Assembly: GCF_020405225.1 (NCBI RefSeq)
Contig: NZ_CP084472.1
Span: 3,038,001-3,102,000, forward strand
Direction: 5' to 3'
DNA length: 64,000 bases
Source: Natrinema sp. DC36
GTDB taxonomy: Archaea; Halobacteriota; Halobacteria; Halobacteriales; Natrialbaceae
Shown here: positions 46,307-50,209 of the stretch, piece after piece
Numbering within the stretch: position 1 is the first letter of the stretch
How the letters are laid out: each line of letters opens with the position of its first letter
The notes under the pieces: model-generated
The model's input: the letters and a program-made list of their open reading frames with translations, nothing else
Databases searched by the model: none
What the model was told of the DNA's origin: nothing
Made by a program: the position numbers and the translations under genes

Positions 46307-48556
46307 ATGGCATTCGAGGACTATCTCCCTGATCGGCTCAGAGAAACGTACAGTGTAAAGATCGGTCTCATATTCTTGCTGGTCGTCGTTATGACGGTAC
46401 TGGTTTCCGCGCTCTTTTTGGGCCACGTCTCCGGTACGGTCGGCCCGGCGGCGGAAGACCACTTCAGCGATCGAACGGCGGACCGAGGCGACGTCGCAGC
46501 GGCCTGGCTCGAGGCGAACGCCGAAACGGCGAACGGGCTGGCCGCGGATGCGACCGTTCAGGAAGGGACCAACGCTGAAATCAGCGAACGGCTCGCGACG
46601 GCCCAGTCGACGCGCGGGGATCGAATCAGCGAAATTCACTATCTCGACGGCGACGGCGAGGTACTCGCGAGCAGTGCGGACGGCGCGGTCGGCGAGAACT
46701 TCTTCGAAACGGCCGGCGTCGAGGGTGCCACCGACGGACCCAGCGCCGCCCACGACGCGGTCGCGAGCGACGAATCGGTGCTCTCGTTCGTCGCCGCGGT
46801 CGACGGCGAATCGGACCGTTACGTCGCCGTTTCCGCCCCCGTGAGCGCGTTCGGCTCGACCCTCGAGACCGCAGACGACCGGCGGACGATCGTCACCGAC
46901 GCGAACGGCGAGCCGATCGCGGCGGTCGGCGAGGCGGCGACGGTCGGCGACGACGCCGTCCTCGACGCCGCTTCGCCGGACGGAGACGGCGTCTCGACCG
47001 GGACCCCCGAGGACGCCGAGACGGAGTTCGCGGCCACGTCGGCGACGATCGACGTCGGCGGCGAATCGCTGACGGTCACGAGCTACGATACCGCGGCGGC
47101 CGTCTACGGCCCGCAGCGGACCGCGACGTCGTCGCTGGTCGCCTTGCTGCTGGTCGTCATCCTCCACCTCGGCCTCGTCGGGGTCGTCCTCGGCGGGAAC
47201 ATCTCGCTGAACCTCCGGCAGCTCGCCGGCAAAGCCGAACGGATGGGTGACGGCGACCTCGAGGTCGGTTTCGAGACCGACCGGATCGACGAGGTCGGAT
47301 CGCTCTACGGCTCCTTTGCGTCGATGCGAGATTCGCTTCGGGAGACGCTATCGGACCTCGAAGACCAGCGCGAACGCGCCCGCGAAGCGCAACGGAGGAC
47401 CGAAGAGCGAAACCGCGAGCTCGAGGCCGAAGCCGAGCGCTACAGCGAGGTCATGGCGTCGTGTGCCGACGGTGACCTCCAGCGGCGTCTCGAGCCCGAG
47501 ACGGACCACGAGGCGATGGTCTCGATCGCCGAGGCGTTCAACGAGATGATCGCCGATCTGGAGGAGACGGTCGCCCAGGTCAAGACGATCTCCGCGGAGG
47601 TCGCGCGGACGAGTACGGAGGTCCAGACCAGCTCCGACGAGATCCGGCGGGCGAGCGAAGAGGTCAGCTCGTCGGTCCAGGAAATCTCCGACGGCTCCGC
47701 GTCGCAGGCCGAGGACCTGTCGATGGCGTCGACCGAGGTCAAGGAGATGTCCGCGACCGTCGAGGAGGTCGCCGCCGCGACGAGCACCATCGCCGAACAA
47801 TCGAGTCAGGTCGACGAACTGGCGACCGACGGCCAGCGGGCGGCCACCGAGACGACGGCGGAGATGCACGCGGCCAGCGAACAGACGGAAGCCGTCGCCG
47901 AGACGATCCGATCGCTGGACGAGGAGGCCGAGCAGATTCAGGAGATCGTCGAGCTGATCGACGAGATCGCCGGCCAGACCAATATGCTCGCGTTGAACGC
48001 GGCCATCGAGTCCGCGCGATCCGAAAGCGCCTCGAGCGATAGCGGCGGCTTCCAGGCCGTCGCAGACGAGGTCAAGGAACTCGCAGCCGAGACTCAGACG
48101 GCGGTCGACGATGTCGAAACTATGATCGAATCGATACAGCAGCGCGCGACGAAGAGTGCCACGCAGATCGAGGCGGCCGAATCGACGATCGGATCGGCGA
48201 CCGAACAGGTCGACTCGCTCTCGAACAGACTCGACCGGATCGCGACGGAGATCGAACAGGTGACGATCGGCGTCCAGGAGATCGATCAGGCGACCGACGA
48301 ACAGGCGGGATCCGCCGGGGAGTTGGCGACGATCGTCCAGGACGTCGCGAGCGTCGCCGACGAGACGACCTCGCAGGCCCAGCAGGTCGCCGCGGCCGCC
48401 GAAGAGACGACCGCGACGATCACCGACGTCTCGGCCGAGGCGACGCGGCTCGACGAACGGGCGACGAACCTCGCCGACGCCGTCGACGAGTTCACCGTTT
48501 CCTCGGGGGCCGATCCGACCGTGACCCCGGCGGGACAGGGAGGTGACAGCCGATGA
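46307..48556 (+). CDS. HtrII-like halobacterial transducer (methyl-accepting)
   Basis: This 749-aa membrane receptor signals to the CheA kinase. TM1 is about residues 17-42. A large extracytoplasmic domain spans about 43-273. TM2 is about 275-302, with LHLGLVGVVLGGNISLNLRQLAGKAERMGDGDLEV, very close to NpHtrII around TM2/HAMP1. A second HAMP-like segment reads AERYSEVMASCADGDLQRRLEPETDHEAM. The long signalling coiled coil has tip EIAGQTNMLALNAAIES (from about 553). After the tip the normal ARAGE..GF stretch reads ARSESASSDSGGFQAVADEVKELA, longer than usual. The last codons overlap the opsin-like ATG (ATGA), the standard htr-sop order. The external domain could bind a ligand. Confidence 0.93.
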   Translation: MAFEDYLPDRLRETYSVKIGLIFLLVVVMTVLVSALFLGHVSGTVGPAAEDHFSDRTADRGDVAAAWLEANAETANGLAADATVQEGTNAEISERLATAQSTRGDRISEIHYLDGDGEVLASSADGAVGENFFETAGVEGATDGPSAAHDAVASDESVLSFVAAVDGESDRYVAVSAPVSAFGSTLETADDRRTIVTDANGEPIAAVGEAATVGDDAVLDAASPDGDGVSTGTPEDAETEFAATSATIDVGGESLTVTSYDTAAAVYGPQRTATSSLVALLLVVILHLGLVGVVLGGNISLNLRQLAGKAERMGDGDLEVGFETDRIDEVGSLYGSFASMRDSLRETLSDLEDQRERAREAQRRTEERNRELEAEAERYSEVMASCADGDLQRRLEPETDHEAMVSIAEAFNEMIADLEETVAQVKTISAEVARTSTEVQTSSDEIRRASEEVSSSVQEISDGSASQAEDLSMASTEVKEMSATVEEVAAATSTIAEQSSQVDELATDGQRAATETTAEMHAASEQTEAVAETIRSLDEEAEQIQEIVELIDEIAGQTNMLALNAAIESARSESASSDSGGFQAVADEVKELAAETQTAVDDVETMIESIQQRATKSATQIEAAESTIGSATEQVDSLSNRLDRIATEIEQVTIGVQEIDQATDEQAGSAGELATIVQDVASVADETTSQAQQVAAAAEETTATITDVSAEATRLDERATNLADAVDEFTVSSGADPTVTPAGQGGDSR

Positions 48557-49317
48557 TCCCCGAACTCCAACTCTATCGGATCGCCTTCTACGCGATGGTC
48601 GCCGCGACAGTCGGCTTCCTCGTCTGGATCGCACGAATGCCGGCCGGGAAACGACGGTACTACCTGCCGGTCCCGATCATCTGCGGGACGCTCGCGCTCG
48701 CCAACTTCGGAATGTCGATCGAACTGTTCAGAATCACGACGGCGGGAGGCGATCCGATTCCGATGACCCGGTACGTCGACTACACGATCGTGACGCCGAT
48801 CATGGTCGTCGTCGCCGGGCTGGTCGCCGGCGCGACACGACGACAACTGGCTGCAGCCGCCGTCCTGAGCGTGATGTGGGTCGGTTCGACGGCCGTCCGC
48901 TATTTCCTCGAGCCCCCGTTGAACGCGGCGGCCGGGATCGTCACGATCGTCTCCCTCGTGGCGATCGTTTACCTGATGGTGTGGCCGCTCACGAAGCGCT
49001 CCGCATCCCGAAGCGGCGAGCGCGTCCTGCTCTACGGGAAGCTCCGGAACTTGCTCCTGTTGCTCTGGGTGTTCTATCTGATCATGGGGTTCGTCTCGCG
49101 ACAGGGCCTCGGACTGCTCGACGCGTTCGGCGGTATCTTCGTTGCCTCCTACCTCGACATCCTCGCCCGGATCGGGTTCGGCGTACTGGTGTTACGAGCG
49201 ACCAACGCCACCGATCAGGTGATCGAGAGTCTCAGATCGTCGAATGCGGGTGACGACGGCTCGGACGGCGTCACGCTCGAGAGATCCGACGACACAGCGG
49301 TCGACCCGGCCGACTAA
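48553..49317 (+). CDS. Opsin-like 7TM protein lacking the retinal lysine
   Basis: This 254-aa protein aligns with sensory rhodopsin II along all seven helices: KRRYYLPVPIICGTLALANF (helix B), RYVDYTIVTP (helix C; R73, D76), LRNLLLLLWVFY (helix F; W172, Y175) and YLDILARIGFG (helix G; Y200, D202). The residue equal to the Schiff-base Lys (K205 of Natronomonas SRII) is R206, codon CGG at 49168-49170. Other pocket positions also differ: Trp76 to Y77, Pro175 to L176, Trp178 to G179. A covalent retinal is therefore not expected. It overlaps the transducer by 4 nt. It may sense something else for the transducer, or be a structural partner. Confidence 0.9.
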   Translation: MIPELQLYRIAFYAMVAATVGFLVWIARMPAGKRRYYLPVPIICGTLALANFGMSIELFRITTAGGDPIPMTRYVDYTIVTPIMVVVAGLVAGATRRQLAAAAVLSVMWVGSTAVRYFLEPPLNAAAGIVTIVSLVAIVYLMVWPLTKRSASRSGERVLLYGKLRNLLLLLWVFYLIMGFVSRQGLGLLDAFGGIFVASYLDILARIGFGVLVLRATNATDQVIESLRSSNAGDDGSDGVTLERSDDTAVDPAD

Positions 49318-49456: not shown

Positions 49457-50209
49457 ATGACTGCACAACGCACGGATCCGTTTCGATGGAGGTTCGCGGG
49501 AGGATCGTCGCCAAACGCACCGCACGTCGCCTCGATGACCTGGCGCGACGGACTGTTCGTCCACTGGCCGGTCGATCCGGACGAACTTCGACCGCACGTC
49601 CCCGGTCAACTAACTCTCGAGACGCGGGACGGTCGCGCCTGGCTGGGCGTGCTCCCGTTCGTGTTGACGAACGTGGGCCTCCGCGGGACGCCGTCGATCA
49701 CCCGGCTGGCGTTTCCAGTACTCACCGTCCGGACGTACGTCCGCTATCGAGGCGATCCCGGCGTCTTTTTCTTCAGCATCGATCTCGACGGGTCGCCGAT
49801 CGCGACGACGGTCGGCCGAACGACGAGTTTGCCAGTCTACGACGCGAACATCCGGGTCGGGGCCACCGAGGAGAACCACGTCGCCTTCGCGAGCGAGCGC
49901 CGGCGGACGGACGATGACACGCCCGCTCGATTCGCCGCGACCTACCGTCCCGACGGCGAGATCCGGACCGCCGAACCGGACACGCTCGAGCACTGGCTCA
50001 CCGCCCGTCGGCGGTTCTACGCGCCGACCGCGAGCGGCGTCCTGACCGGCGAGATCGCACACGACCCGTGGCCGCTCCAGCCCGCCGACGTGGCGATTCA
50101 CGAGAACACGATGCTCGAGGCCAACGGCCTGTCGACGCCGACCGACGGCCCGGTCGTCCAGTACGCCGACGAACTCTCGATGACCGGTTCGATTCCGCGG
50201 CGGTTGTGA
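49457..50209 (+). CDS. DUF2071 (YqjF) family protein
   Basis: This 250-aa protein matches the YqjF/DUF2071 family: MTWRDGLFVHWPVDPDELRPHVPGQLTLETRDGRAWLGVLPFVLTNVGLRG, then VRTYVRYRGDPGVFFFSIDLD and LTARRRFYAPTASGVLTGEIAHDPWPLQPADV. It is soluble and its biochemical function is unknown. It lies 139 nt behind the opsin-like gene in the same direction; a separate promoter is likely. Confidence 0.88.
   Translation: MTAQRTDPFRWRFAGGSSPNAPHVASMTWRDGLFVHWPVDPDELRPHVPGQLTLETRDGRAWLGVLPFVLTNVGLRGTPSITRLAFPVLTVRTYVRYRGDPGVFFFSIDLDGSPIATTVGRTTSLPVYDANIRVGATEENHVAFASERRRTDDDTPARFAATYRPDGEIRTAEPDTLEHWLTARRRFYAPTASGVLTGEIAHDPWPLQPADVAIHENTMLEANGLSTPTDGPVVQYADELSMTGSIPRRL

Follow-up and report, generated by a model that had tools for sequence, protein, structure and literature searches.

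A lysine-less haloarchaeal opsin and its HtrII-type transducer in Natrinema: a candidate light-independent receptor pair

What does an opsin do that has lost the lysine for retinal and is encoded directly behind a transducer? This question is raised by a locus of Natrinema sp. DC36, located in the window analysed here, a stretch of 64,000 nucleotides (contig NZ_CP084472.1, positions 3,038,001 to 3,102,000, forward strand). At 48553-49317 of this window the forward strand holds a frame that is open end to end, from an ATG start to a TAA stop, and that encodes a lysine-less type-1 opsin (opsin-related protein, ORP) of 254 residues with seven transmembrane helices. Its single Pfam match is Bac_rhodopsin (PF01036, E 7e-20, above the family cut-off), and it is the sole opsin of the 5.1-Mb genome. 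The AlphaFold2 model (mean pLDDT 84.4) has its best PDB matches among structures of sensory rhodopsin II (SRII), with TM-scores of ~0.87-0.92 (target length) at ~26% identity, in agreement with a preliminary description of the sequence that had aligned the protein with SRII helix by helix.

Alignment to the SRII of Natronomonas pharaonis (NpSRII, 27% identity), which served as reference for all residue columns, locates Arg206 (codon CGG, 49168-49170, forward strand, as for the other opsin and transducer features given below) at the position of the Schiff-base lysine, Lys205, as first described. Helix G contains no lysine at any other position, and a sequencing error at this codon is ruled out because arginine occupies the site in each of the 23 orthologues, which come from separate genomes. 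In helix C (R73-Y-V-D76-Y77, 48769-48783) the arginine and the counter-ion acid are retained, with Trp76 of NpSRII replaced by tyrosine. Helix F (Y175-L176-x-x-G179, 49075-49089) preserves the tyrosine equivalent to Tyr174, which has a relay role in SRII (PMC3274258), and has lost the pocket residues Pro175 and Trp178. Helix G (Y200-L-D202, 49150-49158) supplies a second acid and the counterpart of Tyr199, a residue that bonds Asn74 of HtrII in SRII (PMC3274258); tyrosine occupies this column in every ORP examined. The residue numbers initially assigned (R73, D76, Y77, W172, Y175, L176, G179, Y200, D202 and R206) are all correct, and so are the three additional pocket changes listed with them (Y77, L176 and G179), but more of the pocket differs, namely V108 to W109, G112 to T113, F127 to G128, F134 to L135 and T204 to A205. 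Thr204, a relay residue, is alanine in three species of the clade, including that of the window, so that the Tyr-Thr bond of SRII is absent there. The protein hence lacks the Schiff-base lysine that defines SRII, having Arg206 instead, and possesses an adjoining HtrII-type transducer together with the transducer-binding tyrosine of the Tyr199 column.

Judged by its sequence, the protein belongs to a known class, the haloarchaeal ORPs described in 2016 (Becker et al., PMC4915679): it is a haloarchaeal type-1 opsin homologue without lysine at K216 of bacteriorhodopsin (K205 of NpSRII), and it falls into a single lysine-less clade. The preliminary description was right that lysine-less opsin relatives exist, giving fungal examples, but missed this nearest class. 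In the 2016 study, 48 of 170 opsins lacked the lysine and formed a monophyletic group next to the sensory rhodopsins, often beside HAMP/MCP genes, both where retinal genes are present and where they are missing; ORP transcripts were detected in species other than that of the window, and two ORPs expressed with retinal gave no absorption band (PMC4915679). Like these published ORPs, the protein of the window is lysine-less, SRII-derived and encoded beside a HAMP/MCP transducer.

Its position within the class is less expected from the published residue summary, in which arginine is confined to group A and Y174 is changed to leucine in groups A and B (PMC4915679). Group A combines arginine with W76 to D, Y174 to L, W178 to A and V108 to M, and in group B the lysine site holds leucine or a different hydrophobic residue, along with Y174 to L (PMC4915679); among the sequences of our own tree, group A proteins mostly carry Asp76, Leu174 and either Ala178 or Ser178. 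The clade of the window, in NpSRII numbers, has Arg205, Tyr76, Tyr174, Gly178, Asp/Glu75 and Arg72. It thus differs from the published groups in keeping Y174, D/E75 and R72 and in pairing arginine with the W76 to Y change. With Tyr77, Tyr175, Gly179 and Trp109 next to its arginine, the window protein departs from group A, and with arginine and tyrosine in place of the hydrophobic residue and leucine it departs from group B, so by sequence the clade fits neither. In a tree of 112 opsins, calculated with the lysine-site column left out, all lysine-less proteins form one clade through a single change (SH-aLRT 100), with the window ORP inside, and its own clade is distinct within it (SH-aLRT 100), grouping weakly with the hydrophobic-type ORPs (SH-aLRT 88). 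The best tree places it outside group A, though a common arginine clade is not rejected (p-AU 0.40). Since Haloterrigena is named in the ORP tree of Becker et al. (PMC4915679), the subgroup was probably among their data, while the printed residue summary does not describe it. Separately, we note a group A ORP divided over two overlapping frames (locus L193, G281:C1:2929370-2930103), probably a frameshift in an otherwise conserved gene.

The preliminary description had suggested a search for other lysine-less opsins beside htr genes, with a comparison of dN/dS. Using tblastn, 22 further orthologues were found, 54-86% identical to the protein of the window, and the resulting set of 23 comes from Natrinema, Haloterrigena and one further genus of the same family. 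Arg206, Tyr77, Tyr175, Gly179, Tyr200 and Asp202 are present in 23/23, and 62 positions are invariant across the clade. The gene order leuS-htr-orp-DUF2071-ornithine cyclodeaminase-like is likewise kept in all 23 loci; the DUF2071 protein, encoded at 49457-50209 in the window, follows the opsin in each of them. Transducer stop and opsin start overlap in an ATGA (48553-48556), and a 4-base overlap recurs in 22/22 other orthologous loci, which suggests translational coupling. Pairwise dN/dS against the window protein ranges from 0.19 to 0.53; in the seven genomes that encode a canonical pump-type opsin besides the ORP, the pump has a median of 0.13, compared with 0.22 for the transducer and 0.31 for the ORP. 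Together with the intact syntenic copies, these values indicate that selection maintains the ORP, less tightly than the pump. A pseudogene is therefore rejected, as had been concluded earlier from the intact frame.

The cognate transducer (htr, 46307-48556) comprises 749 residues, arranged as TM1, an external domain, TM2, a HAMP domain (PF00672) and an MCP signalling domain (PF00015). Its best PDB sequence match, over TM1 as well as over TM2 and HAMP, is NpHtrII, which identifies it as an HtrII-related transducer. TM2 lies at 47123-47191, with His287 (47165-47167) in the column of NpHtrII Asn74, a position that is Asn in Haloterrigena. Among the genomes of the genus, a close orthologue of the transducer (63-100%) occurs in 15/15 with the ORP and in 0/14 without it. 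The external domain of ~230 residues (transducer residues ~40-272, 46424-47122) is not recognised by the Pfam and NCBIfam sequence libraries, in which the opsin subgroup is also unnamed. However, its AlphaFold2 model, with domain blocks mostly at pLDDT 80-96, has a double-Cache fold between TM1 and TM2. As searched with Foldseek and compared with VIA-align, it resembles the ligand-binding domain of CtaA, an amino-acid chemoreceptor (Z 18 and rmsd 2.8 over 209 aligned residues), and those of PctA/PctB (Z ~17). By this fold comparison alone, the external part is a predicted dCache-type ligand-binding domain.

Such a domain is unevenly distributed. The spacing between TM1 and TM2 is ~240-260 residues in the window clade, in most transducer-linked His-type ORPs and in one Thr-type ORP, and 33-38 residues in transducers beside hydrophobic-type ORPs and beside the one group A ORP examined; unlike that of the window, the transducers of the published ORP types examined have no dCache domain. 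Where the external domain is missing, the ORP is the likelier sensor, whereas the window locus has two candidates. Several further arrangements were seen. In four Natrialba-type or related loci (L094 5027-8288, L115 1930-5708, L116 4919-8503 and L141 4033-7431) two different lysine-less opsins flank a single short-loop transducer, an arrangement which suggests that both ORPs work through it. A lysine-less subgroup of Haloarculaceae (Halorientalis and relatives; L091, L096, L098, L099 and L111) has histidine at the lysine site, with a downstream transducer of long external domain in the four loci scored. One lysine-less opsin with valine at the site (L090, G008:C14:128129-128833) lies apart from any adjoining transducer, and its genome has a second ORP, of the Thr type, next to a transducer that has the length of those with a dCache domain.

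Where constraint resides in the ORP was assessed by comparison with a set of SRII orthologues whose overall identity (0.65) matches that of the window clade (0.64). Identity in the pocket is 0.72 in the window clade versus 0.95 in the SRII set and in helix C 0.59 versus 0.75, while the transducer-side helix F is more conserved, 0.81 versus 0.72. Hence, constraint is partly relaxed in the pocket and maintained in helix F. Conservation in the clade proteins is highest in helices F and G, the transducer-binding helices of SRII, and lowest in helices D and E, which help to line the pocket. Eight pocket positions (Y77, M84, W109, Y175, L176, G179, D202 and R206) are nevertheless invariant in the clade. 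An acid at NpSRII position 75 or 76 accompanies arginine in 52/52 scorable Arg-type ORPs and is found in 0/37 ORPs in which residue 205 is neutral and other than His; this association of a charge at 205 with the acid is perfect by count but, with only one or two independent lineage pairs, carries no significance. We infer from these few independent changes that an arginine-acid pair may replace Schiff base and counter-ion.

The arginine site, the altered pocket, the conserved transducer-facing helices, the overlap, the co-occurrence and the lack of a detected retinal-forming enzyme (see below) jointly point to an SRII-derived seven-helix protein that would operate without retinal as partner of the HtrII-type transducer encoded just 5' of it. 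Most likely, the ORP is a retinal-free, light-independent subunit that would pass a chemical input through helices F and G to the transducer. Arg206 would sit at the former protonated Schiff base, ion-paired with D76 and D202, presumably leaving the ORP at rest in a dark-like state that light could not switch. The signal would then come from an input other than light, most likely a small molecule, which may enter the cavity vacated by the W to G change at 179 and the F to G change at 128 and shift helix F, and through it TM2, HAMP and the CheA/CheY pathway; chemotaxis is a likely output given that CheW-domain and archaellin genes are present in the genome. The dCache domain would probably be a second chemical input. 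We favour, with some margin but well short of certainty, an account in which chemical input arrives through the ORP, perhaps together with input through the dCache domain. More tentative, and rather doubtful as a whole, is its fullest form, a bimodal chemoreceptor in which a GPCR-like retinal-free opsin and the dCache domain feed one HAMP, and in which Arg206 permanently takes the place of the protonated Schiff base. The idea of a sensory opsin re-purposed to another signal, put forward in the preliminary description, therefore remains the best reading in view of purifying selection, transducer linkage, an altered pocket and a genome in which no other opsin or retinal-forming enzyme was found, but it had already been proposed as the function of ORPs in 2016 (PMC4915679). 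The same description took the opsin as the signal input and overlooked the dCache domain of the partner; as the transducer has this domain of its own, the opsin need not be the sensor.

Accordingly, the strongest competitor holds that the dCache domain alone senses and that the ORP has a passive part, structural or modulating, on which TM2 and HAMP depend for folding or correct bias. The well-predicted dCache domain, the concentration of conservation in helices F and G rather than in the pocket-lining D and E, and the faster evolution of the ORP relative to its own transducer (0.31 versus 0.22) all fit this reading. Yet most transducer-linked ORPs of other groups stand beside transducers without an external domain (spacing ~37 residues), and some other ORPs have no adjoining transducer, so that in both cases the ORP is the likelier sensor; in addition, the pocket positions listed above are invariant in the clade. 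We regard a passive role as unlikely, albeit worth serious weight.

A retinal-free role agrees with the distribution of retinal synthesis. Of the 29 genomes surveyed in the genus, 19 encode a canonical opsin, eight the ORP only and two no opsin at all; ORP and canonical opsins occur together in seven. The retinal-forming enzyme BCD (PF15461) was detected in 19/19 genomes with a canonical opsin, which serve as positive control for the search, in 0/8 of the ORP-only genomes, that of the window included, and in neither of the two opsin-free ones. The presence of BCD follows that of canonical opsins rather than that of the ORP, which is kept in genomes without a detected gene for retinal synthesis; this pattern is compatible with retinal from the surroundings. 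The lycopene cyclase family PF18916 proved unusable as a pathway marker, with a cyclase-like match in 29/29 genomes. That the ORP still senses light, through retinal or another chromophore bound non-covalently, would accord with the retained fold, R73, D76 and D202 and with lysine-less bacteriorhodopsin, which works with retinylidene amines at reduced efficiency (PMC4915679). However, neither BCD, by a search validated in relatives, nor an RPE65-family enzyme was found in the genome, the Schiff-base site is filled by arginine, the pocket aromatics are gone, and the two other ORPs expressed with retinal gave no band (PMC4915679), which makes a chromophore improbable. A relic opsin heading to loss, for which one could adduce the relaxed pocket and a dN/dS above that of the pump in the same genomes (0.31 versus 0.13), is more improbable still against 23/23 intact, syntenic orthologues with an identical 4-base overlap, dN/dS well below 1, 62 invariant positions and ORP transcripts in other species (PMC4915679).

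The retinal-free subunit that we propose can be placed among known systems. With NpSRII-NpHtrII it shares the fold, the gene pair, the F/G transducer face, Tyr199, D75 and R72, and TM1, TM2 and HAMP of NpHtrII match those of the window transducer; it differs in the missing Schiff-base lysine, the altered pocket, a large external domain instead of the short NpHtrII loop, and Asn74 to His. HtrII of H. salinarum is both phototransducer and serine chemoreceptor (PMC3274258), i.e. an HtrII-type transducer for a seven-helix partner that also takes a chemical stimulus, as proposed for the transducer of the window with its dCache domain, except that here the partner opsin is without the retinal lysine. 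Natural loss of the lysine is also seen in Rh-noK of marine betaproteobacteria and in lysine-less FArhodopsins, which are, however, relatives of proton-pump rhodopsins, without a transducer gene and from a separate lineage (PMC10308929).

In conclusion, the conserved 4-base overlap, the strict co-occurrence of ORP and transducer and the tracking of canonical opsins by BCD are new here, as are the modelled dCache domain of the transducer and an ORP subgroup with more of the SRII relay. Because this subgroup retains more of that relay than the published ORP groups, mutational knowledge of SRII is directly applicable to it. Our literature search found no paper naming an ORP ligand, and the locus is a good test case: its genome encodes a single opsin as well as chemotaxis proteins and archaellins, a retinal-forming enzyme was not found in it, and the dCache domain can be taken out of the transducer on its own. 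If a type-1 opsin senses a stimulus other than light, as has been proposed since 2016, the microbial rhodopsin fold would be a general receptor scaffold and not a photoreceptor alone.
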